The notes below the pieces were generated by a model that worked only from the letters and a program-made list of their open reading frames with translations, was not told the origin of the DNA and searched no databases. A stretch of DNA of 23,458 nt from contig JALGZR010000086.1 in the NCBI GenBank assembly GCA_025774805.1, positions 1-23,458 of the forward strand, in the 5' to 3' direction. Below, piece by piece: positions 3,304-23,050 of the stretch. The stretch comes from a bacterium (GTDB lineage Bacteria > ARS69). Every line of letters begins with the position of its first letter. Position 1 is the first letter of the stretch. Made by a program: the position numbers and the translations under genes.

Positions 3304-3309
3304 GGTGTT

Positions 3310-3315
3310 CCTCCT
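3310..3315 (-). promoter_or_regulatory. Shine-Dalgarno AGGAGG deciding a GTG start
   Basis: The minus strand reads AGGAGG, then six bases, then GTG at 3303. This fixes the GTG as the start of the Asp-box protein, which is also where the signal peptide begins. Confidence 0.75.
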
Positions 3316-3453
3316 GTCCCAGGGGGAGCCGGGGGAGGGGCGTCGGGCAAGGAACGCCGCCGACGCCTTGACCGGTCGGTGGGGGCGATGCCGGTCGCAA
3401 GGACCGACAATCCGATTCTACCCGGCGGGGGAGGGGCGGCACAATCCCGGCCA

Positions 3454-3515
3454 CCGGTCGGCGGCGATCGGGGGGCAGCCGGCAACGATCGACCCCCCGG
3501 TCGGCGGCGATCGGG
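3454..3515 (+). repeat. Imperfect direct repeat, 43-bp period, in a divergent intergenic region
   Basis: CCGGTCGGCGGCGATCGGG (19 bp) occurs at 3454-3472 and again at 3497-3515. The flanks are also similar (GCAGCCGGC versus GCGGCCGGC), giving a 43-bp unit. A looser third copy, CCGGTCGGTGGGGGCGAT, lies near 3372. The repeats sit in the 265-bp gap between the divergent Asp-box gene and the CheR-like gene, 54 bp before the latter's start. They could be operator sites or a small tandem duplication; no function can be assigned. Confidence 0.6.
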
Positions 3516-3568
3516 ACGCGGCCGGCGAGGACCGGTTCACGGCCACCCATGACCGGCAGGCGATCCTC

Positions 3569-4417
3569 ATGAACGACAGGGACTGCGTTCGATTCCTCCA
3601 GGCAGCGTTGCCGGAGCTGCACCTGCGGTGGCCCGGATTCCGGCGTGTCCGGCGGCAGGTCTGCAAGCGAATCGGGCGACGCCTGCGGGAGCTCGGACTC
3701 CCGGACGTCGCGGCCTACGAGGACTTCCTCGAGCGACATCCAACCGAGTGGTCCCGTCTCGACGAGATGTGCCGCATCACGATCTCCCGGTTCTACCGGG
3801 ATCGCCGTCTCTTCGCGTTTCTCGAGGACGACGTCGTTCCTACGCTCGCTCGGATCGCGCGCGAGCGCGGGGACCCCGACGTGCGGTGCTGGAGCGCCGG
3901 GTGCGCGTCCGGCGAGGAGCCCTACACGCTCGCCATGGTCTGGCGCTTCTCCGTACAGGACCGGTTTCCGGGAAGCACGCTCCGCATCACGGCGACCGAC
4001 GTGGACGAGTTCCTGCTGGAGCGCGCTCTCTGCGGGGACTACGGTGCGAGCAGCCTCCGGGAGCTTCCGACGGCGTGGCGATCCCGGGCATTCGAGACGC
4101 GCGAAGGCGATTTTCGAATCCGACCGACACTCCGGGAGACGATCGAGTTCCGACCGGGAGACATCCGAAGGGAAGCGCCCGGCGGGCTCTTCGATCTCGT
4201 CCTGTGTCGCAACCTCGCCTTCACCTACTTCGACGAAGCTCGACAGCGGGAGGTCCTTCGACGGATAGAGGACCGTCTCCGGCCGGGCGGGGCTCTCGTG
4301 ATCGGAAGCGGTGAGGTTCTTCCCGCCGTCGGAGAGGGCTTCGTGCCCTGGCCGTCCGGACCGGGGGTCTTTCGGCGAATCCGATCCGCCGCGCCGGCCG
4401 GGCCGACAGAGAAATGA
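3569..4417 (+). CDS. CheR-type SAM-dependent methyltransferase, stand-alone
   Basis: This 282-residue protein matches the usual length of CheR, which methylates glutamates of chemoreceptors using S-adenosylmethionine. The N-terminal helical domain (residues 1-75) ends in ITISRFYRDRRLF, where CheR proteins have an 'FFR' motif. The SAM-binding signature is CWSAGCASGEEPYTLAM (107-123), followed by ITATDVDEFLLERA (140-153), FDLVLCRNLAFTYFD (208-222) and LRPGGALVIGSGEVL (237-251). The ATG at 3569 was chosen because the CheR_N homology begins there; the open frame extends upstream to 3173, but that part has no homology and overlaps the Asp-box gene. No receptor, CheB, CheA or CheW gene lies nearby, so this is an orphan that may methylate something other than a classical receptor. 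It converges with the decarboxylase gene, with 72 bp between their stops. Confidence 0.88.
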   Translation: MNDRDCVRFLQAALPELHLRWPGFRRVRRQVCKRIGRRLRELGLPDVAAYEDFLERHPTEWSRLDEMCRITISRFYRDRRLFAFLEDDVVPTLARIARERGDPDVRCWSAGCASGEEPYTLAMVWRFSVQDRFPGSTLRITATDVDEFLLERALCGDYGASSLRELPTAWRSRAFETREGDFRIRPTLRETIEFRPGDIRREAPGGLFDLVLCRNLAFTYFDEARQREVLRRIEDRLRPGGALVIGSGEVLPAVGEGFVPWPSGPGVFRRIRSAAPAGPTEK

Positions 4418-4489: not shown

Positions 4490-5920
4490 TCAGACCGGCC
4501 CCCCGGCCAGTCGCCTCGCGGTCTCCGCCACGAGACCGGACAGCCGGCGGATGTGTCTCTCCCGGGTGTACAGGTTGACGAGGTTGAAGCGGAGCCAGTT
4601 CCGGTCCGCGTGCCTCGCCGTCGAGAACCAGGCCAGGCCCGACCGAACGACATCTTCGGCAATCCGCGTCTGGAGGCGATCGATCTCGTCCGGATCACCC
4701 TCAGCCACCTCCCACCTGGCACACGCGATCGACAGCTCTCCCCCGGGGAGAACCTCGAACCCCTCCTCGGCCAGCAATCTCTCGAGCAGGCGGGTCAGCT
4801 CGATGTTGCGGCGAACCGCATCGCGAACGGCCGACAGACCGTGCGCCCGCAATCCCATCCAGATCCCGAGGCCCGACGAGCGACGAGATGTCGGAATGCC
4901 TCTGCGAAACGCGTCCGCCTCTCCATGCTGCGGGATGTAGGACGTGTCGCCGGCGGCGAACGTCCTGCACTCGAGCTCCGCGTGGCGGGTGAGAAACAGC
5001 GCCGCCGCGATCGGGATGAAGAACCACTTGTGGGGGTCGACGGCGATGGAATCGGCCCGCTCGATTCCCGCGAGGCGGGGACGCAACTCGTCGAGCAGGA
5101 CGGCCGCGCCGCCGTAGCAGGCGTCGACATGAAACCAGAGTCCGTGCCGGTGACAGAGGTCGGCGATGTCCGAAAGGGGGTCGATCGCGCCCGTGCCCGT
5201 GGTTCCGGCGGTCGCGACGACGGCAAACGGTCGGCTGCCCTGGCTGCGATCGCGCTCGATCCGATCCTCGAGCGCGGCGGTATCGAGTGAGCCGCGCCCC
5301 GTTCCGGAAAGCGCCACCACACCGTCGTCCCCGATCCCGACCGTGACTCCGCTGCGAGTCACCGAGAAGTGAGCCGCCTGCGAGGTGTAGAGCACGGGAC
5401 GCCCGTCGAGTGCCGCGGGGCCACGGGCCTGCCAGTCGGGGAAGTGCCGCGCGCGGGCCAGAGCGAGACCTTGCAGGGTAGCGAACGTCCCTCCCGGAAG
5501 GACCATCCCCGACCACGACGGATCCAAACCGAACAGACGGGTGAAGACGCGGACGACCTCCTGCTCGGCGGCACTGATCGCGGGGCTCTGGTGGACGGCA
5601 CCCCCGTTGTTGTTCAGGCAGGAGACGAGCAGATCGGCCAACGCAGCGGCGGGGAGGGGAGAGGAGTTGACCAACCCGAGGTAGAGAGGGTGGGGGGTCC
5701 CCATGCTGTTCGGGAGGATTCGATCCCGAAACTCCGAGAGCGTCGGGAGCAGGCCGATGCCCTCTTCGGTCAGCGTGTGTCGAAACAGACGCCGCAGCTC
5801 GTCGCGATCGACGCCCGGGTCGACCCGCCGGTCCTCCAGACCTCGGTAGATCTCCACGAACAGATCGGCCGCGCGGCCGGCCGCGTCCTCGAGAGGCTCG
5901 CGGGTCAGATCGAAGCTCAT
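4490..5920 (-). CDS. Pyridoxal-phosphate-dependent decarboxylase (group II, aromatic-L-amino-acid/glutamate decarboxylase family)
   Basis: This 476-residue protein has the full fold-type I PLP decarboxylase plan. TSQAAHFSV holds the His stacking on the cofactor (H184), FHVDACYGGAA the Asp contacting the pyridine nitrogen (D266), and AVDPHKWFF the Schiff-base Lys (K298). ATAGTTGTGAIDPL is the usual substrate-loop region, and a C-terminal domain follows. The family releases CO2 from amino acids such as Tyr, Trp, DOPA, Glu, Asp or 2,4-diaminobutyrate; the substrate cannot be read from sequence. The ATG at 5920 follows AAGGAGACGTC, a good ribosome binding site, and homology starts there. The upstream ORF ends in an ATGA overlap with this start. 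Position next to secreted-protein genes gives no pathway clue. Confidence 0.9.
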   Translation of the reverse strand: MSFDLTREPLEDAAGRAADLFVEIYRGLEDRRVDPGVDRDELRRLFRHTLTEEGIGLLPTLSEFRDRILPNSMGTPHPLYLGLVNSSPLPAAALADLLVSCLNNNGGAVHQSPAISAAEQEVVRVFTRLFGLDPSWSGMVLPGGTFATLQGLALARARHFPDWQARGPAALDGRPVLYTSQAAHFSVTRSGVTVGIGDDGVVALSGTGRGSLDTAALEDRIERDRSQGSRPFAVVATAGTTGTGAIDPLSDIADLCHRHGLWFHVDACYGGAAVLLDELRPRLAGIERADSIAVDPHKWFFIPIAAALFLTRHAELECRTFAAGDTSYIPQHGEADAFRRGIPTSRRSSGLGIWMGLRAHGLSAVRDAVRRNIELTRLLERLLAEEGFEVLPGGELSIACARWEVAEGDPDEIDRLQTRIAEDVVRSGLAWFSTARHADRNWLRFNLVNLYTRERHIRRLSGLVAETARRLAGGPV

Positions 5921-6429
5921 GACGTCTCCTTCGCGACCGCCTGGAAAGAAATGCAGGCTAGCACAGTATCCGCCCGCCCGTCCGCCGGCTCGGGTGCCGA
6001 CCCGGACACCGGCCGTCCGCCGAGACGGGCCTCGACGGGATATGGCTCGACGTGTCCCTGTTGAACGACAACGGAACGGAACGTGGGCGGAGGTGACGGG
6101 CCGCGAATCAGCCGGGCCTCCTGACGGTCCTTCCAGTAGGGATCGGCGTAGTAGTTCCCCTCGATCTCGGTCGCGTCGTCGTACCTCCAGCGGTAGCTTT
6201 CCCCGTCCTCCCGTCGAGTGCGGTAGCGAATCCCGGTCTTGTGATTCCCGTGCTCGGAGCTCGCCTGGAAATCCCACTGGTGGCCGGCGAACACGGTGTA
6301 GCTGTTTTGAAAGAACGCGTCGGCGTTGATGTACGAGTACCCGAAGATGCGACTGCATCCGGTCGTGGCCCATCCCCAGGTCAGACGCGGCAGGTCGTAC
6401 GTGATTCCGAATCGGGTGAACCGGAGCAA
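5917..6429 (-). CDS. Unidentified protein, possibly 5'-truncated
   Basis: A 170-residue frame runs from a TTG at 6429 and ends in the ATGA start of the decarboxylase. Third codon positions are strongly G/C in the middle (e.g. the stretch coding GCSRIFGYSYINADAFFQ), as in real genes of this genome, and aromatic residues are frequent (SYINADAFF, GHQWDFQ, SYRWRYDD, NYYADPYWKD). No ATG or GTG start exists in the open frame, which begins after a TGA near 6474, and no signal peptide is visible. Either TTG is used with a weak GGGG ribosome site, or the gene has lost its 5' end, as its upstream neighbour seems to have done. I recognise no family. The proline-rich tail (residues about 110-150) may be disordered. 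Confidence 0.45.
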   Translation of the reverse strand: MLRFTRFGITYDLPRLTWGWATTGCSRIFGYSYINADAFFQNSYTVFAGHQWDFQASSEHGNHKTGIRYRTRREDGESYRWRYDDATEIEGNYYADPYWKDRQEARLIRGPSPPPTFRSVVVQQGHVEPYPVEARLGGRPVSGSAPEPADGRADTVLACISFQAVAKETS

Positions 6430-9631: not shown

Positions 9632-10837
9632 TCACCGAGGACGGGAGATCGAGGCCTTCCGGGATCGAGCGGGGGTGAACGCCTCGATCGCGGACTCGTA
9701 GATCGACAGCAGCTGCCGGTAGTTCGGCTCCGCGGTGAATCGCTCTTCGAATTCCCGACGCGCTTCCCCACGCATCGGGCCGAGATCGCGCGTCTCGAGG
9801 GCCCGGATCTTTGCGGCGAGGTCGTCCGGATCCCCGGGGCGGAAGAGAAGACCCGTCCGTCCGTGGTCGACGAGCTCCTCCATCGCCCCCAGGCGAGAGG
9901 CGATCACGGGGACGGCGCGCGCGTAGGACTCCACGATGATCCGCCCGAACGTCTCGTACCATTCCGAGGGCATCACGGAGAATCGTGCATCCCCGAGGGC
10001 CGCGAGCACCTCCTCCGGAGGGCGATGTCCGCGCCACTCGATGCGGGGATCACCGGCGGCCGCGTCGCGCACGGCGTCCCCGAGAGGACCCTCTCCGAAG
10101 ATCCGCAGGCGGGGGGCGGACGGCGTCCGCGACCACGCCCCCAGCAGAGTTTGGACGCCCTTCTCCGCCGTCAGCCGCCCCGCGAAGACGGCGTACTCTC
10201 CGCGACCGGAGCCCGGGCCCGGATCGGGATGCACGAAGTTCGGCTTGCAGGCGATCCTTCCGGGCGGAAGGCCCCCTCCGATGAACTTCCTCCGCGCGAA
10301 CTCGGTGAGCGCGACATAGCGGTCGACCGCGCGTCTCCAGGTTCCCACCGCACGGTGAAGGCTGACCATCGTCGCCGTCACCGTGCTCGCGCCGAGACTG
10401 CCCCGGTAGCAACGGTGTCGGACCCCCGGCCACGGTACGCTTCGTCCCGCGCAGTCCTCGCAGATCCGGCCCCCGCGGTGGAGGATCGCGCTCGGACAGA
10501 GCAGCCGGTAGTTGCGGAGGGACTGGACGACCGGGACTCCCATCCGGCGCGCGGCGTAGTAGAGGGCGGGGGAGAGGAGAGGAAAGGGATTCGAGCAGTG
10601 CAGGATTCCGGGACGCTCCCGCCGGATCAGATCGCGAATCTCTCGGTAGACGGTCCGACTCCAGATCGTGCGGCCCGTGAGCTCGAATCCCGACATCTCC
10701 CGGATCGTGTCGTTGTGCTTCGTGTACGTGATGACCTCGTGCCCGCGGGAGCGGAGGAGGCGGACCTCGGTCGCGAACGACTCGTCCTCCCCGCCGGGGC
10801 TCTGGTAGTGATTGTGGCAGGCGAGAACTTTCAGCAC
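9632..10837 (-). CDS. GT4-family glycosyltransferase
   Basis: This 401-residue GT-B enzyme would transfer a sugar from a nucleotide-sugar donor to a growing glycan at the cytoplasmic membrane face. The N-terminus (VLACHNHYQSPGGEDES) carries the glycine-containing acceptor-side motif. A Cys-rich insert (CPSAILHRGGRICEDCAG) typical of one GT4 subgroup follows, then FAGRLTAEKGVQTLL and the donor-binding EWYETFGRIIVESYA with the E-x7-E pair. Start is GTG at 10837, 6 nt after the stop of the AEP transaminase gene and behind CCGAGGTGA, so it is almost surely the fourth gene of the phosphonate operon. The context suggests that it builds the glycan carrying or accompanying the phosphonate. Donor and acceptor are unknown. 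Confidence 0.9.
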   Translation of the reverse strand: MLKVLACHNHYQSPGGEDESFATEVRLLRSRGHEVITYTKHNDTIREMSGFELTGRTIWSRTVYREIRDLIRRERPGILHCSNPFPLLSPALYYAARRMGVPVVQSLRNYRLLCPSAILHRGGRICEDCAGRSVPWPGVRHRCYRGSLGASTVTATMVSLHRAVGTWRRAVDRYVALTEFARRKFIGGGLPPGRIACKPNFVHPDPGPGSGRGEYAVFAGRLTAEKGVQTLLGAWSRTPSAPRLRIFGEGPLGDAVRDAAAGDPRIEWRGHRPPEEVLAALGDARFSVMPSEWYETFGRIIVESYARAVPVIASRLGAMEELVDHGRTGLLFRPGDPDDLAAKIRALETRDLGPMRGEARREFEERFTAEPNYRQLLSIYESAIEAFTPARSRKASISRPR

Positions 10838-10843
10838 TTCGGC

Positions 10844-11938
10844 TCACCTCGGAAAGGCGGCGAGCGTGTCCACGAGCTCGTCGAGATCCGCCGTGGAGAG
10901 ATCGCCCATCACCGAGATCCGGAAGATCGACTTCATCAGGGACTTCTGTCCCGGGTAAATGACGAAGCCGGCCTCGTGGGCATACCGGAAGAGGTCGTCG
11001 AAATCGACGCCCGCGGGAAGCCGGAACGAGGTGAGGATGCTCGAGTACGCGGACTCGCTCTCCAGCAGAAGATCGTACCCGTGCCCCCGCAATCCACGGC
11101 GCACCCGGGCCGATCGACTCGCGTACTCCGCGTTTCGATTCCGCCAGCCGCCCGCCTCCTCGAGCTCGCGAAGCGCCTCCCGAAGCGCCGCAACGACCTG
11201 CACGGCCGGGGTGAACGGCGGATACTTCGACGACTGGGCCTGGGCATAGCGGTGCAGATCGAGATAGAGGCCCGGCGCGAAGGTCTCGGTCGCCTCGAGC
11301 GCGTCGCGGCGGACGATCACGAACGAGATTCCGGGAACACCGTGCAGGCACTTGTTGGCGCTCGCCGCGCACGCGATCAGATTCCATCCCGCGAAGTCGA
11401 CCCTCTCCCCGCCGAAGCTGCTCACCGCATCGAGGAGCAGAGGGACTCCGGCGTCGGCGCACATTCTCCCGAGGGCGGCGACGTCGTTGAGCCGGCCGGT
11501 CGTCGTCTCGTGATGGACCGCGATCACGTGACTCGGCCTCGGCTTCTCCCGAAGCGCCCGCTCGACCCGGTCGAGGTCCATGGCCGCGGTCCATTCGGAT
11601 CGGACCAGCTCCGAACGCTTCCCCTGCGCCCCGAGAATCGCGGCGATGCGCTCGCCGTAGACGCCGTTGGCGACGACGAGCGCCCCGCTCTCCGATGGAA
11701 CCAGAGTTCCGATCATCGCCTCGACCGCCGCCGTTCCCGACCCGGTGAGAAGCACCGCCGCGTGGGTCGACTCCGCCTCGGGATAGACGCGGCGCAAGAG
11801 GTCGAGGGTCTCGTCCTGCATCGAGGCGTACTCGGGTTCGCGGTGACAGAGATCCGTGCCGAGCAGCGCTCGGCGCACCCGCTCGGTGAGCGTGACCGGA
11901 CCGGGGTTGAGAAGCCGCACTCGGGTCGGGATGCTCAT
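10844..11938 (-). CDS. phnW/aepZ: 2-aminoethylphosphonate:pyruvate transaminase
   Basis: This 364-residue class V aminotransferase converts phosphonoacetaldehyde and an amino donor to 2-aminoethylphosphonate (or the reverse in catabolism). Seen directly: LLNPGPVTLTERV at the N-terminus, LTGSGTAAVEAMIGTL, HHETTTGRLND, LLLDAVSSFGGE with the cofactor Asp (D170) and ASANKCLHGVPGISFVI with the Schiff-base Lys (K196), the PhnW-type signature. Its ATG (11938) overlaps the TGA of the decarboxylase gene as ATGA and is preceded by GAGGGG, showing translational coupling. No PhnX (phosphonatase) gene is present and PEP mutase is in the same operon, so the biosynthetic direction is strongly favoured; in capsule loci such genes are called aepZ. 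Length and key residues are normal. Confidence 0.93.
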   Translation of the reverse strand: MSIPTRVRLLNPGPVTLTERVRRALLGTDLCHREPEYASMQDETLDLLRRVYPEAESTHAAVLLTGSGTAAVEAMIGTLVPSESGALVVANGVYGERIAAILGAQGKRSELVRSEWTAAMDLDRVERALREKPRPSHVIAVHHETTTGRLNDVAALGRMCADAGVPLLLDAVSSFGGERVDFAGWNLIACAASANKCLHGVPGISFVIVRRDALEATETFAPGLYLDLHRYAQAQSSKYPPFTPAVQVVAALREALRELEEAGGWRNRNAEYASRSARVRRGLRGHGYDLLLESESAYSSILTSFRLPAGVDFDDLFRYAHEAGFVIYPGQKSLMKSIFRISVMGDLSTADLDELVDTLAAFPR

Positions 11939-13083
11939 CCGTTGCCCCTCAGGAACGATTGCAGGCGCCGGACCACCTCGGGCGGCGTCTCCTTCGGTCG
12001 AGGAAGGCGACGGTTGCTCCGGGGAAGCGTTCTCACGTGCAGGAAGCGAGGACCCGCATCGGGACGCGAGACCTCTTCCCGCAGATGATCGAGGCTCTCG
12101 ACCCGCGTGGCGACGGAGTAGCCGCACGCGGCCGCGATCGACGCGAGATCGACCGAGGGCGACACCGTGGCCTGGCCCCCGGTGGAATCGTAGACGGCAT
12201 TGTCGAGAACGACGTGCAGGAGATTCGGGGGCCGCTCGTGCCCGATCGTGCTCAGCGCGCCCATCCTCATGAGGACGGCTCCGTCGCCGTCGATCGCCAC
12301 CGCCCGCCGCTCCGGTCGGACGGACGCGAGCCCGAGGGCGAGGCTCGAGACGCAACCCATCGAGCCGACCATGTAGAGCTGGTTGGGTCGATCATCGATC
12401 GCGTAGAGCGCACGTCCGGAGTAGCCGGTGGTGGCGAGGAGGACGTCCGTCTCCATCGCGCTCTCCTGGATCGCGGCCAGCACCGCGTCCGGGTCCAGCC
12501 GGGTCCGAGAGGCTCCCGCCTCCGGCGTGCTCTCCAGGCGGGGGTCCCGGATGAGATCGGGCCCGTTGCGGAGCTCGCGTGGAGCCACCGCTCCCTTGCT
12601 CAGGATCAGGGCATACGGTGTGCGGTGGGCCTCCATGTGGGCGATCGCTCGCCCGACGACGGGCCCCACCCCCTCCGGGCGGTCGGGAAAAGGCTCCCAG
12701 GGAATCTCGAGCAGATCGAGGAGGCGCGTCGTGATACGCCCCATGAAGTGGTGTTGCGGCTCGTCGGGTGGCTGCTCGGGATGGCCACGCCAGGTGACCA
12801 CGACGAGAATCGGCAACTCGAGCGTCGCCGTCAGCGAGGTCAGCGGATTCACCGCGTTGCCGAAGCCCGAGTTCTGGAACATGACGAGGCTGCGCACACC
12901 ACCCAGCTCCGCGCCGCAGGCGATCGCGACGCAGTCGCCTTCGTTCGCCCCGGGCACGTACCGCAGTTCCGGATCGTCGATCACGGCGTTGATGACCGGG
13001 GTCAGGTAAGAGCAGGGCACACCGGTGAAGAGACCGAAACCCGCGCGCTTCAGCTCGTCGAGAAGAGCCTGGGCCTCGATCAT
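11935..13083 (-). CDS. aepY: Phosphonopyruvate decarboxylase
   Basis: This 382-residue thiamine-diphosphate enzyme decarboxylates phosphonopyruvate to phosphonoacetaldehyde, the step that makes the unfavourable PEP mutase reaction irreversible. The start region has [32 protein letters not shown] with the cofactor-activating Glu (E48) and [17 protein letters not shown]. The C-terminal ThDP-binding motif runs from [13 protein letters not shown] (266-278) to [12 protein letters not shown]. These are hallmarks of the Fom2/AepY/Ppd family. The ATG at 13083 overlaps the TGA of the fusion gene upstream as ATGA, and its own stop overlaps the transaminase start, so the three steps are coupled in translation. 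Both ThDP halves are on one chain, as is usual. Confidence 0.95.
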
Positions 13084-16000
13084 CGGAAGGAGCTTCCCTG
13101 GAGCACGTCGTCGACGCTCTCGATGCCGAGCCAGTTCCCGGTGGTGTAGATCACTCGCACGGCCTTCCCCGATTCCGAGATCCGGCGCACGAGTCCGGCC
13201 AAGTCCATCGACGAGCGGGCCTCGGAAGTCGACGCGACCTCCGAGAGAAGCGCCCGCAGGTGGTGGGCCCCGTTGTCCGACACGGCGAGGAAACCCGTCC
13301 ATTCGCCGTGGATCCGATCGGGATCGAGGGAGCTTCCGATATCGGTGAGGGTGATCTCCCGGAAGGCGGAGGAACGGCAACAGGGCTCGCTGCAGCTCAC
13401 GTACTGTGCCCCCCCGGCGCGCTTCCGATTCTGCCCTTCCTTCCAGTCCGCGTCGACCAGAACGGCGAAGTCGTCCTCGGTCTCCATCAGCTCCTGGAGG
13501 AGGACCTTCTTGAACAGGACGTCGCCGGGGGAGATGATGCACCGCCCCTGCAGGGCCGGCGCCGCCCGGGAGAGCGAGAAGGCCTCCCCGGTGTTCTCGA
13601 CATCGTCGTTGTCGAAGTACTTCACTCCATCGAGATTGACGGCCTCCTTCCGGTAGCCGCGCACGATCGCGATGTCGCGAATGGACGTCGCGCGATAGGT
13701 CTCGACGGCATGGGAGAGAATCGACGCTCCGGAGATCTCGACCATGGCCTTGGGCCGATCCTCGGTGAGCGCACCGAGTTCCGGTCCCTGCTCCGTGGCG
13801 AGGATGATCGCGCGCGTCACGTCGGCGTTGCGGGGCAGGTAGCGCTTCTCGGCCTCCGTGAGCTCCTGCGCTCCCTGTAGCCGGAAGATCTCGGCCACGG
13901 AGCTGATGCGGTCCTCGGTGTTGATCAGGGACTGATCCTCGAAGATCTGTTGTGCGCTCCGCTGCATGGCGGTGATGCACGACCGGATCATGTGGTTCGC
14001 CCAGATCACGGCCGAGAATCCCACCTCACGAAACATCTCGGTCGGGGTCGAGTAGTACTTCGTGGGCACGATCACGACCGGAAGCCGACTGCCCCACTCC
14101 CGCTTGAACGCGAGAACCTCCCCGGGGTGGGCCTTCGCGCTGTGGATCAGGATCGCGTCGGCACCGGCCTGCCGGTAGGCTTCCGCCCGCTTGAGGGCCT
14201 CGGCCAGACCCCATCCCGCGATGAACGCCTCCACCCGGGCCACGATCACGAAGTCACTCGAGGACTGCGCTTCCTTTCCCGCCCGGATCCTGCCGGAGAA
14301 CTCCTCGATGGCCGCCAGGGGCTGACTCGTCCCCCGTATGAAGCTGTTGGTCTTCGGAAACGTCTTGTCCTCGATGCAGACTCCGGCGATTCCTCGCTGC
14401 TCGAGCTTGCGCACGAGCCGCCGCATGTTGTTGAAGTTCCCGTAACCGGTGTCTCCGTCTACGAGAATCGGAAGTCGCGTGGCGTCGCTCATGAATTCGA
14501 GCACTTCCAGGACCTGCGTCCAGCTCGCCTCGTTCGAGTCGCGGACTCCGAGAGCGGCGGAGATCGCGAGTCCGCTCGCCCAGATCGCCTCGAATCCCGC
14601 CTCCTCCACGATCTTGGCGCTCAGCCCGTCGTGCGCCTCCATGATGAACGAGAGCTCGGGACTGTCGAGGAGCGTGCGGAGGCGTTTCGCTCTCGCGGAC
14701 AATTCGTTCTCGGGGGGCGACGACCGAGGCGTCGAGTGGACTGCGGCCCGTGCCGCCGTCGTGCCGGGGGTCGAAGATCCACCCGCCTCCTCTCCCTCCC
14801 GTACCGCCCGCCCGGCCACCGGCTCTCTCCCGTTTCCCGCCGCGTCGACGAGGTCGGAGACGACCATCCGGTGCTTGCCGGCCGAGGTCAGGGGGAGGCT
14901 CTCGACAGTTTCGATCGTGACCGGATAGCCTTCCACGACTTCGACCAGATCTCGCTCCAGGCCGCGGAAGTCGATCGCGGCGAACGGGTCGTCCAGTTCC
15001 AGGGCGACGGCGAGCGTGCCGTCCGACCGCTGGCGCACGCGGAAACGGCGGACCGCGGTGGTTCCGTACTTGAAGAGGCCGTCGAACGTCGAAGAGTGGA
15101 GATGCCGGCCGGAGCGGCTGATGACGAGGTCGTTGTTTCGCCCGGAGACGTTCGACAGCGTGGCAAATCCCCGTTCGGGGGGCTCGATCGGCGCATCGGT
15201 GGTGTCTTCGATCGCATATCGAAGAAGGGGAAACGACGGGTTGTCGAGCACGGTGAGGACAATGTCGTACCGGCCGTCGTCGCGCCGAACGGTCTCGGCC
15301 AGCACCCGGTCGTCGCGGAGCCGCAGCGTTCGATCGGGCATCTCGCACGCCGTGATGCCGCACTCGTGGGATCCGTATTCGACCACCGCCGGGACGCCGA
15401 ACTGGTCCTCGATTCTGCGGACCATGTGGGGGAAGGCGGGCTCCCCGGTGAGCCGGAAGAGCCGCAACGAGTCACATTGATAGCCCTCGATCTCGGCCTC
15501 TCGGGCCAAAAGGTCGAGGGCGCTGCTGTATCCGTAGATCGAGGCCGGCCGGAATGCGGCGATGCGCCGCAGGTAGCGCCGGAGATCGTCCCGCCCGAGC
15601 CGGTAGGCCGACAGTCGAAGCCTGCCGCGAAGGCGGTCCTCGAGGGGCCGGCGAAATCTCACCAGCCGCCCTTCCCAGCCCGGGGCGAACTGAGCGCTGT
15701 GGCCCCACAAGTAGGCCTCGCGCTCCAGGATGTCGAGCCCCCAGGCGTCGTGGAATCGGTATTGCGCCCGCAGCGATTCCCGGTGGGCCTTCATCGACCA
15801 GTAGATCCGCATCGGGCTTCCGGTCGATCCCCCGGTTCGGTGCCACCTGCCGGGCTCCGCTTGCTCGGAGAGGAAGGCCCGAGTCGCGGATCGGACCTGT
15901 GGCTTGACGAGGATCGGCACCCGTTTCCGGAACTCGTCGAGGCTCTCGAACCGGTCGGGAAGGCCCGGGTCTCCCGACCTCTCCCGGCGGAGGCGCCGAT

Positions 16001-16157
16001 AGTGCGGAACGTGGGCGATGGCGTGCGCCCAGACCGCGTTCAGGCGCTCGAGCTGAAAGCTCTCGATCTCCTCTCGCGACCAGCGCTCGCGAGCTTCCAG
16101 CTTCGGCAGCTCGCGATAGGCTTCACGAAATCTGGGAAGGAGGCGCAGGACGTTCAT
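13080..16157 (-). CDS. aepX (pepM-pntC fusion): Three-module fusion: CapK/PaaK-like adenylate-forming enzyme + phosphoenolpyruvate mutase + PntC-like nucleotidyltransferase
   Basis: One uninterrupted 1025-residue frame. Residues 1-440 are a CapK/PaaK-like adenylating domain: nucleotide loop TGGSTGSPM (108-116), [10 protein letters not shown] (258-267), [12 protein letters not shown] (310-321), SGRNNDLVI (338-346) and the catalytic-Lys region [10 protein letters not shown] (423-432). A Ser/Thr/Ala/Pro-rich linker fills about 441-485. Residues 486-775 are PEP mutase: [13 protein letters not shown] with the key Asp (D540), Mg-binding VDGDTGYGN (D567, D569) and the diagnostic [10 protein letters not shown] (596-605). 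Residues 781-1025 are a nucleotidyltransferase with [14 protein letters not shown] (797-810), [23 protein letters not shown] (metal Asp 879) and VDADW (901-905). PEP mutase makes the C-P bond from PEP; PntC-type domains load AEP onto CMP. PepM-PntC fusions are known; the added CapK-like module is, to my knowledge, unusual. What it adenylates is unknown. The ribosome site before the ATG at 16157 is weak. Confidence 0.93.
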
Positions 16158-16559: not shown

Positions 16560-18926
16560 ATGCCTTTCACCCACTCTCGGCTGCCGGCGACCCGGCGCTT
16601 CGCGCCGAGGCCTCTACCGCCGCGACGCCGGGACCTGGCCGGTCCGGGGTCCTCGTCCTCCGTGGAGGGGGGACTGTCGCTCGGCGCCGTCCTTCGGCGC
16701 TGGCGGTCGGTGTCCCTCTCGATGCTCGCCGTGCTGGCCGCCGTCGCGGTGCTCACCTACTTCTGGCCGCCCAGCTACGAGTCCACGGCCCTGATTCTGG
16801 TCGAGCCCCGCGGCGAGGACGGGGGATCGTCCTCCCTCGAGATTCTCGAGAGGCTGGGACAGGTCAGTCGCGTCGAGACCGAGATCGAGTTGATCAAGAG
16901 CCGTCCCGTCATCGAGCAGGCCGTCGACGAACTGGACCTGCACGTCGTCGTCGAGGCCTCCGCGGGGAGCGCGGAACGGGCCGGCGAGTTCGAATCGCTC
17001 ACGGCCGGGCCCGACGCCGTGCCCGGGACCTACGATCTCGAGTGGAACGCCGGAGACCGGCCTCTCATCAGCGAGAGGACCACGGGCCACCGCGTGACCA
17101 CGGAGTTCGACCCCCCCACCCTCGGCTTCGCTCGCATCGGGGCCACTCTCTTCGATTCCACCGGTCCCGTCTCCCTCACCGTCCGGATCCTGCCGTTCGC
17201 CGAGGCGGTCGAGCAGACCCTGGAACGGGTCCGCGTGGGACGGCCCCAGCGCGACGCCACCCTGGTCGAGCTGGCCTGCCGGGGCTCGACTCCCACGGAA
17301 GCCCACGCGCTCTGCTCGACCGTGCTCGAGAGCTACGTCGAGTTGCGGACCGAGCTCCAGCGCGCCGAGGCAACGGTGACCGCCAAGTTCCTCCGAGAGC
17401 AGGTGACCCGCGTGGGCCAGCAGCTCGCCGAGGCGGAGGCGCGACTCGAGACCTACGAGCGCGAGAACAACGTGGTCGCCCTCGCGGATCGGGCGTCCGA
17501 GGGAGTCCGTCAGCTCAGCCGGGCTCGCGAGCAGCGCGACCAGCTCGAGGCCGAGCGGTCGGCGCTGGCCGCGCTCGTCCGGAAGATCGAGGCCGATGAG
17601 AGGGGGAGCCGGAAGTTTCGCGAGCTCGCGAGCTTTCCCACGTTCTTGGAGAACCCCGCCATCACCGAGCTCCTGACGAGTCTCACCGAGCTGGAGAATC
17701 GTCGGAGCGAGCTCGCCGTGCGGCGAAGCCCCCTGAACGCCGACCTCGCGGCCGTCGACGACCGGATCGCCGGAATCGAGCGCGATCTGCACCAGATCGT
17801 GATCGCTTACGAGCAGGCGCTCACGGCACAGGTCCACTCCCTCGACGAGACGCTCCGGAGGAGCCAGGCCAGTCTCGGCGTGATCCCCACGCAGAGGATC
17901 ACCTCCGCCCGACTCGAGCGCGAGACGAAGCTCCTGGGAGATCTGCATCGACTTCTCGAGACCCGGCTCCGCGAGGCCGAGGTCGCCCAGGCGGTCAACC
18001 TCCCGAACGTCCGGGTGGTGGGCACGGCGCTGTTCCCGTCCCGCCCGGCGTCACCCAGCTACCCGAAGAACCTGGCCGCGGGCGCCGTTCTCGGCCACGA
18101 CCGGGAGGAAGTGGAACGGCGGACCGGACTGCCCGTGCTCACCCTCATCCCGAGTCTGAGGCGCACCGGCCCCCTGCCCCAGATGCCCGCCATCGATGGG
18201 CAGCCCGCCGCTTCTTCGTTCCCGCTGGCGGGACGGTCCGCGAGGCGGAACGGTGAGCTCGCGTACGTGGCCGTCGAGGCCATACGCGGTCTCGCGTCCG
18301 ATCTCAGTTTCGCCTCCCGCGAGCTCGGCCTCGACCGAGTGAGCACCGTTGCGGTGACCAGCACCGGCCGGGGCGAAGGGAAGACGTTCACCGCGTGCAA
18401 CCTCGGCATCGTCCGTGGGTCGGCGTTCGTTCGGACCCTCCTGATCGACGCAGACCTGCGGGGCTGCGGAGTGGCCCGGTTCTTCGACCTTCCCACATCC
18501 TCGCCCGGCCTCAGCGACGTTCTGGCCAATGGAGCCGAGCCGGGAGGACTCATTCAGGAGGTCCAGGTGGAGGGAGCGTGGCTCTCGGTCCTTCCCGCGG
18601 GCACCCCGACCCTCAATGCGGCCGGGCTGCTGAGCTCTCCGGAGTTTCGGGCGCTTCTGAGTCGAATGAGCGAGGAATTCGACCTCGTCATCGTGGACAC
18701 GCCTCCACTCAGCATCTTCACGGACGCAGCGGAAATCGCGGCCACCGTGGACGCCGTTCTGCTCGTCGTTCGCGGCGGAGTCACGGACCGCGAGTCGATC
18801 GAGCAGACGGTCGAGCGTTTGAGGCGCGCACACGCCCACTTGGTCGGAGCGGTTCTGAACGACGTTCCATTCCCTCGCGGCAGCATGAGTCGCTACTACT
18901 ACCCACACCGAGGGACCGAGCCATGA
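16560..18926 (+). CDS. Wzc-like polysaccharide co-polymerase / BY-kinase, lacking the second transmembrane helix
   Basis: This 788-residue protein combines a Wzz chain-length domain with a C-terminal bacterial tyrosine kinase and normally controls polymer length and export with Wza. The first membrane helix (VSLSMLAVLAAVAVLTYFW, 51-69), a Wzz region (70-200), a long coiled-coil part (about 260-480) and the PxxP-like ASPSYPKN are visible. Kinase motifs follow: Walker A GRGEGKT (about 602-608), A' LLIDADLRG (about 627-635), Walker B LVIVDTPPL and a short Tyr tail RYYYP. Between ASPSYPKNLAAGAVLG and HDREEVERRTGLPVL the usual second helix and its cytoplasmic juncture (about 25-30 residues) are missing. 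With one helix, the kinase would sit on the wrong side of the membrane. The start at ATG 16560 has only a weak ribosome site. It is the first gene of the operon; its stop overlaps the next start as ATGA. Confidence 0.9.
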   Translation: MPFTHSRLPATRRFAPRPLPPRRRDLAGPGSSSSVEGGLSLGAVLRRWRSVSLSMLAVLAAVAVLTYFWPPSYESTALILVEPRGEDGGSSSLEILERLGQVSRVETEIELIKSRPVIEQAVDELDLHVVVEASAGSAERAGEFESLTAGPDAVPGTYDLEWNAGDRPLISERTTGHRVTTEFDPPTLGFARIGATLFDSTGPVSLTVRILPFAEAVEQTLERVRVGRPQRDATLVELACRGSTPTEAHALCSTVLESYVELRTELQRAEATVTAKFLREQVTRVGQQLAEAEARLETYERENNVVALADRASEGVRQLSRAREQRDQLEAERSALAALVRKIEADERGSRKFRELASFPTFLENPAITELLTSLTELENRRSELAVRRSPLNADLAAVDDRIAGIERDLHQIVIAYEQALTAQVHSLDETLRRSQASLGVIPTQRITSARLERETKLLGDLHRLLETRLREAEVAQAVNLPNVRVVGTALFPSRPASPSYPKNLAAGAVLGHDREEVERRTGLPVLTLIPSLRRTGPLPQMPAIDGQPAASSFPLAGRSARRNGELAYVAVEAIRGLASDLSFASRELGLDRVSTVAVTSTGRGEGKTFTACNLGIVRGSAFVRTLLIDADLRGCGVARFFDLPTSSPGLSDVLANGAEPGGLIQEVQVEGAWLSVLPAGTPTLNAAGLLSSPEFRALLSRMSEEFDLVIVDTPPLSIFTDAAEIAATVDAVLLVVRGGVTDRESIEQTVERLRRAHAHLVGAVLNDVPFPRGSMSRYYYPHRGTEP

Positions 18927-19591
18927 TCCGGATCCGGCAAAGAACGGTGAGCGCCCGGTGGGTCCGGGCCCTGGTCTTCGTCCTGACCCTTTCCACCGTG
19001 GGCGGCGCGACTCACGTCGCGGCCGATCCTCCGTACGCGCGCGGAAACCCCTCGATTCGCGGCGAAGGCGAAGGGCTCGAACCCGGCGATGCCATCGCCG
19101 TCCATTCGTGGCGCGAGCCCCAGCTCAGTGGTGAGTACCCGATCGACGAGGAAGGAACCGTGGTCCTCCCGCTTTTGGGAGTTCGGGAGGTGGTCGGGGT
19201 TCCGACCACCGCGTTCAAGCAGGACGCTTTGAGGGATTACGCCACCCAGTTTCCGAATCAAGAGATCCGCGTCACGCTTCTCCGCCGGGTGGGCATCTTG
19301 GGAGAGGTGAGGCGTCCCGGGCTCTATCACATCGACGCCACTCTGGATCTCGCCGACATCATCGCGCTCGGCGGCGGCCCCACCTCCCAGGGAAAGACTC
19401 GGGAGGTCGAGATCCGGCGGGGTCGTCGTCGGCTTCGGGTCTCCCTCGACAATGACATCACCGCGCTGGGTCCGTTCCGCTCCGGGGACCAGATCATCAT
19501 CCCCCAGCGGAGCTGGTTGTCCCGTCACAGCGGCATTCTCGTCGGAGCGTTTATCTCCGGTGCGGCAATCATCACGGCGGCGGGGAGATAG
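18923..19591 (+). CDS. Wza-like polysaccharide export protein (Poly_export + SLBB)
   Basis: This 222-residue protein has an N-terminal signal peptide (WVRALVFVLTLSTVGGATHVAA). A polysaccharide export domain follows (about 48-125: LEPGDAIAVHSWREPQLSGEYPIDEEG with the usual 'G..VxPllG' continuation), then an SLBB domain (VGILGEVRRPGLYHIDATLDLADIIALGGG). It ends in a short hydrophobic segment (ILVGAFISGAAIITAAG). The family forms the outer-membrane or periplasmic channel for capsule and exopolysaccharide. It is much shorter than E. coli Wza and has no lipobox Cys, as in many non-enterobacterial members. Start chosen at ATG 18923, which overlaps the Wzc-like stop (ATGA); the longer open frame upstream lies in the shadow of that gene. 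Confidence 0.9.
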   Translation: MIRIRQRTVSARWVRALVFVLTLSTVGGATHVAADPPYARGNPSIRGEGEGLEPGDAIAVHSWREPQLSGEYPIDEEGTVVLPLLGVREVVGVPTTAFKQDALRDYATQFPNQEIRVTLLRRVGILGEVRRPGLYHIDATLDLADIIALGGGPTSQGKTREVEIRRGRRRLRVSLDNDITALGPFRSGDQIIIPQRSWLSRHSGILVGAFISGAAIITAAGR

Positions 19592-21208
19592 ATGCTGTCG
19601 GCGTTCCGGATACGACCCGCGCGGGACTATTCCTCACCTCCCCCGCAGGGGCTGGGCGCCTCCCCCGGGCGCCGGGCCGGTGTCCGGATCGCGGAGCGGG
19701 TGCTCGTGGACGCGGCGTCCTCGCTCGTCGGCTTCGCGGTCGGTCATTCTCTGATTCCCTGGCCGATCATCCGGCCGGTCGTCGAGCCGGTTCCCCCCGG
19801 GCACTTCGCCGCCCTCTTCGCTCTCTTCTTCCTCCTTCTCCTTACCGCCTTCTGGCGCCACGGACTGTACGGCACCCGTGCGAGCGTTCTGAACCTCTGG
19901 GAGATGAGTCAGACCGTCAAAGCGTTCTTCATCTCCTCGGCGTTCTATCTGGCGCTTCTCTTCCTCTTGAACATCCCGGGCGACCGCGCCGCGGTCCTCC
20001 TCTCCCTCGCCGGATCGATCGCCCTCACCGTCCTCTCTCGGCGGGTCGTCGCGTGCGTGTCGCGCACGAGGCGGCTGCGGCAGGGGACCGGGCGGCGCGT
20101 GCTCGTGGTCGGGTGCGGCGAGATGGGCCGACTCGTGGTCAAGAAGATCCTCGACGCTCACCACACGGACCGGACCGTCGTCGGCTTCGTCGACGACACC
20201 TCGCCGATGGCCACGTACGTTCCCTTGGGCAACGGCGCCACGGCGCGCACGATGGACAGGTGCCGGGTGGTCGGTCGAACGAAGGACATCGAGACGATCG
20301 TGGGGGACCTGGACGTGGACGAGCTTCTCATCGATGAGACGACCGTCGGCGCCGAGGCGGTCGATGAGATGTTCGAGCTGACCCGCCGGATCGACGTCGC
20401 CGTCGGGATCGTTCCCCGGTTCGCGGATCCGGGGGTGGACAGGCTGTGCCTCGAGGATCTCGGGGCGCTGCCCGTTCTTCGACCACATCCTCCGACCCCG
20501 CGAAGAGCGTATCGGGCGGCCAAGCGCATCTTCGACCTCTGCGGCTCGCTCGCTCTTCTGGTTCTCACCGCGCCCCTGCTCATTCTGGCCTACCTGGCTC
20601 TCCGGATGGGTTCCCGTGGACCGGTCATCTTTCACCAGGAGCGCATCGGGCAGAACGGGAAGCCCTTTCGAATCTACAAGTTCCGAACCATGGACCTGGA
20701 CGCCGCCCCGTACGACTACTCACCGGCGAGCGACCATGATCCCCGGATCACGCGCCTCGGGCGCATTCTCCGGACCTCGGGCTTCGACGAGCTTCCCCAG
20801 CTCCTCAACGTTTTCCGCGGAGAGATGAGCCTCGTCGGACCTCGACCCGAGATGGCATTCATCGTCGACACGTACACCGAGCTCCAGAGGCGCCGGCTCG
20901 AGGTCAAGCCGGGGATCACCGGAGTCTGGCAGCTCAGCCCCGACCGGCACGCCCAGATCCACGAGAACATCGAATACGACTTCTACTACATCCACCATCG
21001 ATCGCTTCTGCTCGACGCGATGATCCTGGTGGAGACCGTGTTCGCCACGCTCGGGATGCTCTTCCGGAGAATCCGTCAGCGCTGGAGAGGACAGGACCCG
21101 ATTCGGGCCGCTGGGGGCGCGCCATCACTCGTTCCGTCGGTCGGCGCCGGGGCCGGTTCTCGGGCCGTCGAAGAGCGTCTGGCGGCGAGCGACCCGAGGC
21201 GGGAATAG
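19592..21208 (+). CDS. Polyprenyl-phosphate sugar-1-phosphate transferase (WbaP/WcaJ-like)
   Basis: This 538-residue initiating enzyme moves a sugar-1-phosphate from a nucleotide sugar to undecaprenyl phosphate and so starts each repeat unit. The N-terminal half has several membrane helices (LFALFFLLLLTAFW, AFFISSAFYLALLFLL, AVLLSLAGSIALTVL). A Rossmann-like CoA_binding_3 domain (RRVLVVGCGEMGRLV) follows. The catalytic domain has KRIFDLCGSLALLVLTAP, IFHQERIGQNGKPFRIYKF, RILRTSGFDELPQLLNVF with the Asp-Glu pair and EMSLVGPRPE. All signature residues are present. About 50 residues at the C-terminus look disordered (Ala/Gly/Arg-rich). The ATG directly follows the Wza-like stop codon, so the genes are coupled. 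The sugar is not predictable. Confidence 0.93.
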   Translation: MLSAFRIRPARDYSSPPPQGLGASPGRRAGVRIAERVLVDAASSLVGFAVGHSLIPWPIIRPVVEPVPPGHFAALFALFFLLLLTAFWRHGLYGTRASVLNLWEMSQTVKAFFISSAFYLALLFLLNIPGDRAAVLLSLAGSIALTVLSRRVVACVSRTRRLRQGTGRRVLVVGCGEMGRLVVKKILDAHHTDRTVVGFVDDTSPMATYVPLGNGATARTMDRCRVVGRTKDIETIVGDLDVDELLIDETTVGAEAVDEMFELTRRIDVAVGIVPRFADPGVDRLCLEDLGALPVLRPHPPTPRRAYRAAKRIFDLCGSLALLVLTAPLLILAYLALRMGSRGPVIFHQERIGQNGKPFRIYKFRTMDLDAAPYDYSPASDHDPRITRLGRILRTSGFDELPQLLNVFRGEMSLVGPRPEMAFIVDTYTELQRRRLEVKPGITGVWQLSPDRHAQIHENIEYDFYYIHHRSLLLDAMILVETVFATLGMLFRRIRQRWRGQDPIRAAGGAPSLVPSVGAGAGSRAVEERLAASDPRRE

Positions 21209-21229: not shown

Positions 21230-22234
21230 ATGTCGGAGACACGCGTTCTGGTGACGGGAGCGGGAGGGTTCATCGGCCATCATCTGGTCTCGTACCTGAA
21301 GGGCATGGACTACTGGGTGCGAGGGGTGGATCTCGTGCATCCCCATTTCGCTCCGTCCCGGGCCGACGAGTTCCTGATTCTCGATCTACGCCGGTGGGAC
21401 AACTGCCTCGCGGCGACGGCGGACATCGACGAGGTGTACGCCCTCGCCGCCGACATGGGGGGCATGGGGTTCATCTCCGCGCACCATGCCGAGATCCTCC
21501 ACAACAACATCCTGATCAACACGCACACTCTGGAGGCCGCGCGGCAGAACGGAGCCGGTCGCTACCTCTTCACGTCCTCCGCCTGCGTCTACCCCGAGTA
21601 CCGTCAGACCGAGACCGAGGTGGTGCCTCTGAAGGAGGAGGACGTGTATCCGGCCCAGCCGCAGGACGCCTACGGCTGGGAGAAGTTGGTCTCGGAACAC
21701 CTCTGCCGCCACTACCGGGAGGAGACGGGGATCGAGACGCGAATCGTACGATTCCACAACATCTTCGGTCCGCTCGGAACCTGGGAGGGGGGGCGCGAAA
21801 AGGCTCCCGCGGCCCTCTGCCGCAAGATCGCGGTAGCGCGGCTCACCGGCGACCACGAGATCGAGATCTGGGGAGACGGCGAGCAGACCCGGTCCTTCTG
21901 CTACATCGACGATTGCGTCGCCGGCCTCCACAAGCTCATGCGCTCCGGTCATCACCAGCCGCTGAACTTGGGACAGGATCGACTCGTGAGCATCAACGAG
22001 CTCGCGACGATCATCGCTCGGGTCGCGGGAATCCGGATCTCGAGGAGGCACGTACCGGGACCCCAGGGCGTGCGTGGACGCAACTCGGACAACACGCGGC
22101 TGCGCGAGGTTCTCGACTGGGAGCCCGAGATCTCCCTCGAGGAAGGACTGGCGCGAACCTACCGTTGGATCGAGGGCGAAGTCCGGGAGAAGCTCGACGC
22201 CGAAGCGCGGAGCCCTCGGGCTCGGAGCGCGTGA
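21230..22234 (+). CDS. gme: GDP-mannose 3,5-epimerase
   Basis: This 334-residue short-chain dehydrogenase/reductase converts GDP-D-mannose to GDP-L-galactose (and GDP-L-gulose). Seen: the NAD loop TGAGGFIG (9-16) and the family-specific run AADMGGMGFIS (73-83). The catalytic region SSACVYPE has Ser117 and Cys119; QDAYGWEKL has Tyr148 and Lys152. Also present are FHNIFGPLGTWEGGREKAP with Lys191, GDGEQTRSF and GPQGVRGRNSDN with the GDP-binding Arg. These motifs agree closely with plant GDP-mannose 3,5-epimerases and are far more specific than a general 'NAD epimerase' label. A strong ribosome site (AAAGGAG) precedes the ATG. In this operon it most likely supplies L-galactose for the polysaccharide rather than for ascorbate. 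Confidence 0.9.
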   Translation: MSETRVLVTGAGGFIGHHLVSYLKGMDYWVRGVDLVHPHFAPSRADEFLILDLRRWDNCLAATADIDEVYALAADMGGMGFISAHHAEILHNNILINTHTLEAARQNGAGRYLFTSSACVYPEYRQTETEVVPLKEEDVYPAQPQDAYGWEKLVSEHLCRHYREETGIETRIVRFHNIFGPLGTWEGGREKAPAALCRKIAVARLTGDHEIEIWGDGEQTRSFCYIDDCVAGLHKLMRSGHHQPLNLGQDRLVSINELATIIARVAGIRISRRHVPGPQGVRGRNSDNTRLREVLDWEPEISLEEGLARTYRWIEGEVREKLDAEARSPRARSA

Positions 22235-22237
22235 TTC

Positions 22238-23050
22238 ATGGGATCCCGGGCGTCGGACTCGTGCACCCCCGGCCGGGACGGCGGAGGCGAGGTCGCGCGG
22301 GTGAACGTCCTCGGGGTGGGGGTGTGCGCCCTCGGTTTCGACCAAGCGCTGCGGATCATCGAGGGTTGGATCGATGCGGGGACGGGCGGCTACGTGTGCG
22401 TCACGGGCGTGCACGGAGTGATGGAGAGCCTCCAGGATCCTTCGCTGAGAGAGATCCACAATCGCGCCGGTCTGGTCACTCCCGACGGGATGCCGCTCGT
22501 CTGGTTGAGTCGACTTCACGGCTTCCGGCACGTCGAACGCGTTTACGGCCCCGACCTGATGCTGGCCCTCTGCCGGCGATCGATCGCGCGTGGTACCCGT
22601 CACTACCTGTACGGAGGGGCGGAAGGCGTCCCCGAGCGGCTGGCCCGCCGGCTCGGCCGGCGCTTCCCGGGTCTCAACATCGTGGGGGGATACTCGCCGC
22701 CCTTCCGGTCCCTCTCCCCGAAAGAGGATGCGGACATCGTGAGACGGATCAACGAGGCTCGCCCGGACGTCGTGTGGGTCGGGCTCAGCACGCCGAAGCA
22801 AGAGCGATGGATGGCGACCCACGTCGACGACCTCACCGCTCCCGTGCTCATCGGAGTCGGGGCCGCCTTCGACTTCCACGCCGGGCTCAAGCCTCAGGCT
22901 CCGCTCTGGATGCAGCACGGCGGACTCGAGTGGCTGTTCCGCCTGCTCTCCGAGCCGCGTAGGCTGGCCGGGCGCTACCTCGTCAACAATCCCCGCTTCC
23001 TCTGGCACACGCTTCTGCAGGGGATCCGGGTCCGCCGCTACGAGCCCTGA
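22238..23050 (+). CDS. WecG/TagA/CpsF-family glycosyltransferase
   Basis: This 270-residue GT26-family enzyme adds the second sugar (in relatives N-acetylmannosamine or its uronate) onto the polyprenyl-linked first sugar. Motifs: VNVLGVGVCALGFDQAL at the start of homology, LVTPDGMPLVW with the catalytic Asp, HYLYGGAEGVPERLARRL, DVVWVGLSTPKQERWM, GVGAAFDFHAG and a basic C-terminal membrane-associating tail (LAGRYLVNNPRFLW). Two starts are possible. ATG 22238 is 3 nt after the epimerase stop. GTG 22301 lies exactly where homology begins and has GAGG 8 nt before it; it would give 249 residues and may be the true start. Function in the operon fits the step after the WbaP-like transferase. Confidence 0.9.
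   Translation: MGSRASDSCTPGRDGGGEVARVNVLGVGVCALGFDQALRIIEGWIDAGTGGYVCVTGVHGVMESLQDPSLREIHNRAGLVTPDGMPLVWLSRLHGFRHVERVYGPDLMLALCRRSIARGTRHYLYGGAEGVPERLARRLGRRFPGLNIVGGYSPPFRSLSPKEDADIVRRINEARPDVVWVGLSTPKQERWMATHVDDLTAPVLIGVGAAFDFHAGLKPQAPLWMQHGGLEWLFRLLSEPRRLAGRYLVNNPRFLWHTLLQGIRVRRYEP

Follow-up and report, generated by a model that had tools for sequence, protein, structure and literature searches.

Proteins that combine a PEP mutase (PepM) with other catalytic domains were inventoried previously by Rice et al. 2019 (PMC6697681), where approximately 33% of the surveyed Ppm proteins were fused to a PF12804 domain and only PF12804, PF01467 and TPP domains were recorded as fusion partners, the count being based on matches above the Pfam gathering thresholds. 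In the Ppm-PF12804 fusions, PepM is followed by a nucleotidyltransferase (NTP) domain in one chain, with a phosphonopyruvate decarboxylase (PPD) and a 2-aminoethylphosphonate (AEP) transaminase (AEPT) encoded next door, while 42 proteins are triple fusions of Ppm, PF12804 and PF01467. The PntCs characterized in the same work require a GXG(T/S)R...PK motif, and alanine at Arg15, Lys25 or Lys153 of Tde-PntC lowered activity to <10% (PMC6697681). The proteins studied there, Ari1348 and the PntC-AEPT Tde1415, are not PepM-fused.

The 23,458-nucleotide stretch of DNA analyzed here (hereafter the window) encodes a 1025-residue protein in a single open frame on the minus strand (13080-16157), in which a CapK/PaaK-type domain is joined to PepM and NTP domains (Table 1). 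This CapK-PepM-NTP chain is a real new domain architecture made of known enzymes and its single known instance. The order of the PepM and NTP domains and the adjoining PPD and AEPT genes are shared with the Ppm-PF12804 fusions, whereas the window chain adds the N-terminal CapK domain and has an NTP site without two residues of its subfamily, R790 and D1011. Three enzymatic domains per chain are also found in the triple Ppm fusions, but there the third domain is a second cytidylyltransferase and here it is an adenylate-forming ligase.

Table 1. Features of the fusion gene and its neighbors in the window (residue numbers refer to the 1025-residue protein).
Feature	Position	Strand	Basis
CapK/PaaK-type adenylate-forming (ANL) domain, residues 1-440	14838-16157	-	own-genome paralog, PaaK profile, core motifs
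Linker, residues 441-485, Ser/Thr/Ala/Pro/Gly/Arg/Glu-rich, without homology	14703-14837	-	codon-position GC, codon use, pLDDT
TTG codon (Leu486), possible internal start of PepM-NTP	14700-14702	-	inference
PEP mutase domain, residues 489-775, with ten-residue motif (letters not shown)	13833-14693	-	TIGR02320, 1m1b/1pym
PepM-fused NTP-transferase (PntC/LicC-like) domain, residues 781-1025	13083-13817	-	PF12804, motif survey, alignment to canonical PntCs and LicC
NTP P-loop, residues 788-793, TEQGPE vs ASRGxE in relatives	13779-13796	-	motif survey
Gly1011 at second metal-site acid; Asp in other 80/81	13125-13127	-	motif survey
PPD, ATG overlaps fusion stop (ATGA)	11935-13083	-	TIGR03297 367 bits, cut-off 312.5
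2-AEP transaminase (PhnW/AepZ), overlaps PPD stop	10844-11938	-	TIGR03301 360.4 bits, cut-off 360.8
GT4 glycosyltransferase, final operon gene	9632-10837	-	PF13692/PF00534
Wzz/tyrosine autokinase, in divergent exopolysaccharide operon	16560-18926	+	PF02706, TIGR01007
Wza-type polysaccharide export protein	18923-19591	+	PF02563, SLBB
Polyprenyl glycosylphosphotransferase	19592-21208	+	TIGR03025
NAD-dependent sugar epimerase/dehydratase	21230-22234	+	PF01370
WecG/TagA glycosyltransferase	22238-23050	+	PF03808

The initial annotation had regarded an N-terminal adenylating module on such a chain as being without known precedent, and in agreement with this the domain-architecture searches returned no second protein; the many described proteins of the same architecture that would have told against novelty were not found. 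PepM was present in 17 of 386 genomes spread over many families, with the window frame being the only one longer than 600 aa, and a further sample of the phylum added 12 new PepM frames, none longer than 554 aa. Among the 80 nearest PepM-NTP loci on genome contigs (54-61% identity), which came from Myxococcales, Nitrospira, Spirochaetales, Gammaproteobacteria and others, none had a CapK domain, either fused or neighboring. No CapK-PepM fusion occurred among 108 other PepM frames, nor among the approximately 150 CapK/PaaK matches listed from the 386 genomes, whose other frames had lengths between about 250 (partial) and 776 aa, and a first scan of genome contigs that used the CapK domain as query gave no relative. 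A same-phylum search covered five genomes, and four members of the organism's own family were without PepM. One candidate, an 887-aa frame at locus L066, was rejected since its extension was non-coding and without CapK homology, with PepM starting at an internal Met. The CapK domain scored 21.2 bits with PF00501 (AMP-binding), under the cut-off of 29.9, so that a fusion of this type would have been invisible to the survey of Rice et al.; fusion inventories that rely on Pfam thresholds can miss ANL fusions.

The solid evidence for the fusion is homology on both sides of the junction in one frame (CapK homology ends at residue 437 and PepM begins at residue 489), together with the absence of stops from codon 424 to codon 511 in all three frames. 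The single 1025-residue frame was thereby borne out, as was the Ser/Thr/Ala/Pro-rich linker described between the first two modules, and a stop or frameshift at residues 440-485, which would have divided the frame into two genes, was looked for and not found. The openness of the linker itself is weak evidence, because a 45-codon stretch of its base composition has an approximately 50% chance of being stop-free. Its predicted disorder (pLDDT ~25) comes from a whole-chain model built without relatives that is unreliable for the CapK half (pLDDT ~25-75). The fusion is known from one contig of an uncultured bacterium's metagenome-assembled genome (MAG; 96% complete, 5.06% contaminated), and loss of a stop or gene boundary by assembly or base-calling error would be favored by this level of contamination and by indel-type breaks elsewhere in the MAG, both in the window (1014-3303) and in a CapK-like gene on contig C169. 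Such an artefact is nevertheless very unlikely, as the other frames also lack stops over codons 424-511, so that the join is not accounted for by a simple indel and an indel alone could not separate the genes, a CapK paralog with 52% identity in the same genome indicates that CapK is not foreign there, and GC is uniform across the window. The break in the window affects a minus-strand gene for an exported BNR-repeat-like protein that carries a FlgD-type domain at its C-terminus; the gene is split over frames 1873-3303 and 1014-2186 and may represent a frameshift, an assembly indel or a pseudogene.

A genuine fusion could also be recent and without functional meaning, a neighboring capK having lost its stop before pepM-NTP, with PepM-NTP perhaps still translated from TTG486 and the activities independent. 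This is consistent with the position of TTG486, one residue before the start of the PepM relatives and 6 nt downstream of a weak GAG-type site, with the flat codon-position GC of linker residues 441-480 (0.72/0.78/0.75), with a synonymous codon choice that ranks at the 4th percentile among coding windows, and with the failure to find an orthologous fusion. However, the linker codons would be just as unusual for shuffled or off-frame DNA (top 4%), flexible linkers look alike, and the lack of CapK next to PepM at any of the 80 nearest loci gives no sign of ancestral adjacency. Stop-loss is considered a possible explanation, appreciably less probable than the reading favored below.

The CapK domain (residues 3-437) shared 52% identity (E 1e-131) with a stand-alone paralog on contig C247 of the same genome, and a family profile built from ten sequences and run against the PDB matched solved PaaK (phenylacetate-CoA) ligases with E values of 6e-54 to 1e-46. 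Comparison with nine relatives showed that the ANL core was kept (G110/G113, Y261/E265, R313-Y314, D318, G339-R340 and K428), corresponding to the Gly-rich loop at 109-113, YGxxE at 261-265, RYxxxD at 313-318, GR at 339-340 and the C-terminal Lys428 of ANL/PaaK enzymes. These core motifs and a length of approximately 440 aa are common to the fused domain, the PaaK structures 4r1l, 2y4o and 2y27 and the CapK/PaaK-like proteins of polysaccharide loci, but the last are stand-alone, with full-length matches in frames of ~420-780 aa, and the CPCG pair of most CapK relatives is absent from both the fused domain and its paralog. The PepM domain is likewise intact by its motifs, with EDKXXXXXNS at residues 596-605, and is predicted to convert PEP to phosphonopyruvate. 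It scored 383.8 bits with TIGR02320 over residues 493-764 (cut-off 319.55), matched the solved 1m1b/1pym with an E value of 6e-127 and had 1pym as its top structural match.

The third domain, although recognized by PF12804 (35 bits, cut-off 27), departs from this pattern. The PepM-fused NTP domains (81 including the window protein) have the signature AASRGxEL...PK in place of GXG(T/S)R...PK, with the Arg three places earlier and a Glu at the former Arg position. In the window protein this signature reads ATEQGPEL...PK, so that the Arg of the PntC motif is absent and the subfamily Arg790, present in 78/81, is replaced by Gln (R790Q). A second substitution, D1011G, is unique to the window protein and removes, at the C-terminal metal site, the Asp of WLD[IV] that is found in the other 80 of the 81; canonical PntCs adjoining relatives in genomes G057 and G022 have WLEID and WKEID at this site, aligned to the EID of LicC. 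When the columns with at least 95% conservation across the 81 sequences were compared, the window protein tied for first in deviation in its NTP domain and ranked twelfth in PepM. Tde1415 PntC-AEPT (PDB 6PD1/6PD2) and LicC (1JYK) share the fold and the PK lysine with the window NTP domain, but have the canonical GXG(T/S)R and the metal-site acid that it lacks. Because of Q790, G1011 and the joint-highest deviation among the 81, the NTP domain is probably impaired and no longer a normal cytidylyltransferase. The initial annotation described three complete enzymes with all catalytic motif sets intact; the motifs are indeed intact in CapK and PepM, but not in the NTP transferase, and its completeness is not supported, since it is without two conserved active-site residues. 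Across the PepM-fused NTP domains of the 80 relatives (L066-L145), AASRGxEL...PK constitutes a distinct and apparently uncharacterized signature in a very common fusion.

An active AEP cytidylyltransferase, in which CapK would have been added to a PepM-PntC enzyme that supplies CMP-AEP to a transferase elsewhere, would be in line with retention of the PK lysine K803 (81/81) and of D879, the other metal-site acid, with the conservation of the PepM-fused subfamily in spite of its general lack of the canonical Arg position, and with a canonical NTP gene in only 19 of 80 relatives' loci within the fetched flanks. Set against the two substitutions, the loss of activity of the Tde-PntC mutants (PMC6697681) and the genome content, this is unlikely: neither LicD nor Glyphos_transf was found in the 96% complete window genome, and the one of its four CDP-alcohol transferases whose neighborhood was read is a PgsA-like housekeeping enzyme beside recA/cinA. 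A close stand-alone PntC gene was not found in this genome either; an apparent PntC/CDP-alcohol pair on contig C79 was rejected as RmlA-like and PgsA-like genes in the recA/cinA region. A Pfam scan of 59 neighbors of the PepM-NTP relatives gave five CDP-alcohol transferases and two Glyphos_transf.

The fusion gene is followed by PPD, AEPT and GT4 genes, the first two junctions being ATGA overlaps, and the contig end cuts off the rest of the polysaccharide cluster (Table 1). In the fetched flanks of the relatives' PepM-NTP clusters, PPD was present in 50/80 and AEPT in 29/80, and GT group 1 accounted for 16 of the 52 proteins flanking CapK relatives elsewhere. A link between phosphonate and glycan had been raised in the initial annotation, and the context supports it, with the PepM/PPD/AEPT/GT4 operon lying next to genes for the export and assembly of exopolysaccharide and with glycosyltransferases as the typical neighbors of CapK relatives. 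The literature search on CapK function in polysaccharide loci or on CapK-PepM links found nothing relevant. Elsewhere in the window, a pyridoxal-dependent decarboxylase-like gene (4490-6373, minus strand) and a CheR-like methyltransferase gene (3173-4417, plus strand) flank the region, and neither shows an evident connection with the phosphonate operon.

The reading we favor, at about even confidence, is that of a real and so far single-genome fusion that couples a polysaccharide-locus CapK-type enzyme to PepM-NTP within a pathway placing AEP on exopolysaccharide. By the known pathway, PepM would convert PEP to phosphonopyruvate, from which the products of the next two operon genes would form AEP by way of phosphonoacetaldehyde. 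The CapK domain may use ATP to convert a putative carboxylic acid to an acyl-adenylate for the same glycan, and the activated acid may be put on, or joined to, the glycan on which AEP would be placed; having the domains on one chain may bring a benefit. No acyl acceptor or carrier for CapK was identified in this analysis. In a more specific and rather improbable version, AEP would be joined to the glycan via its amine, with CapK adenylating a carboxylate (e.g. that of a sugar acid such as a uronic acid), AEP serving as the amide partner in place of CMP-phosphonate activation and the NTP domain persisting as a vestige or binding module. The initial annotation's suggestions that the acid is activated in step with phosphonate synthesis and that AEP is N-acylated are speculative. 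The failure to find a PntC-like gene, LicD or Glyphos_transf makes a non-CMP route slightly more plausible. For the favored association of CapK and PepM-NTP, the relevance lies in the way that bacterial surface glycans receive their phosphonates once AEP is made, since a PEP mutase tied to an acid-activating enzyme and an apparently damaged nucleotidyltransferase hints that a second chemistry of attachment may exist.

The CapK paralog on contig C247 (L034 14484-16121, minus strand) adjoins a Wzx-like flippase gene, with apparent type VI secretion-related genes (DUF2169-like and VgrG-like) upstream. The second CapK-like gene, on contig C169 (L035 1994-3325, minus strand), is frameshifted near its C-terminus and neighbors polysaccharide-pyruvyl-transferase-like and flippase-like genes.
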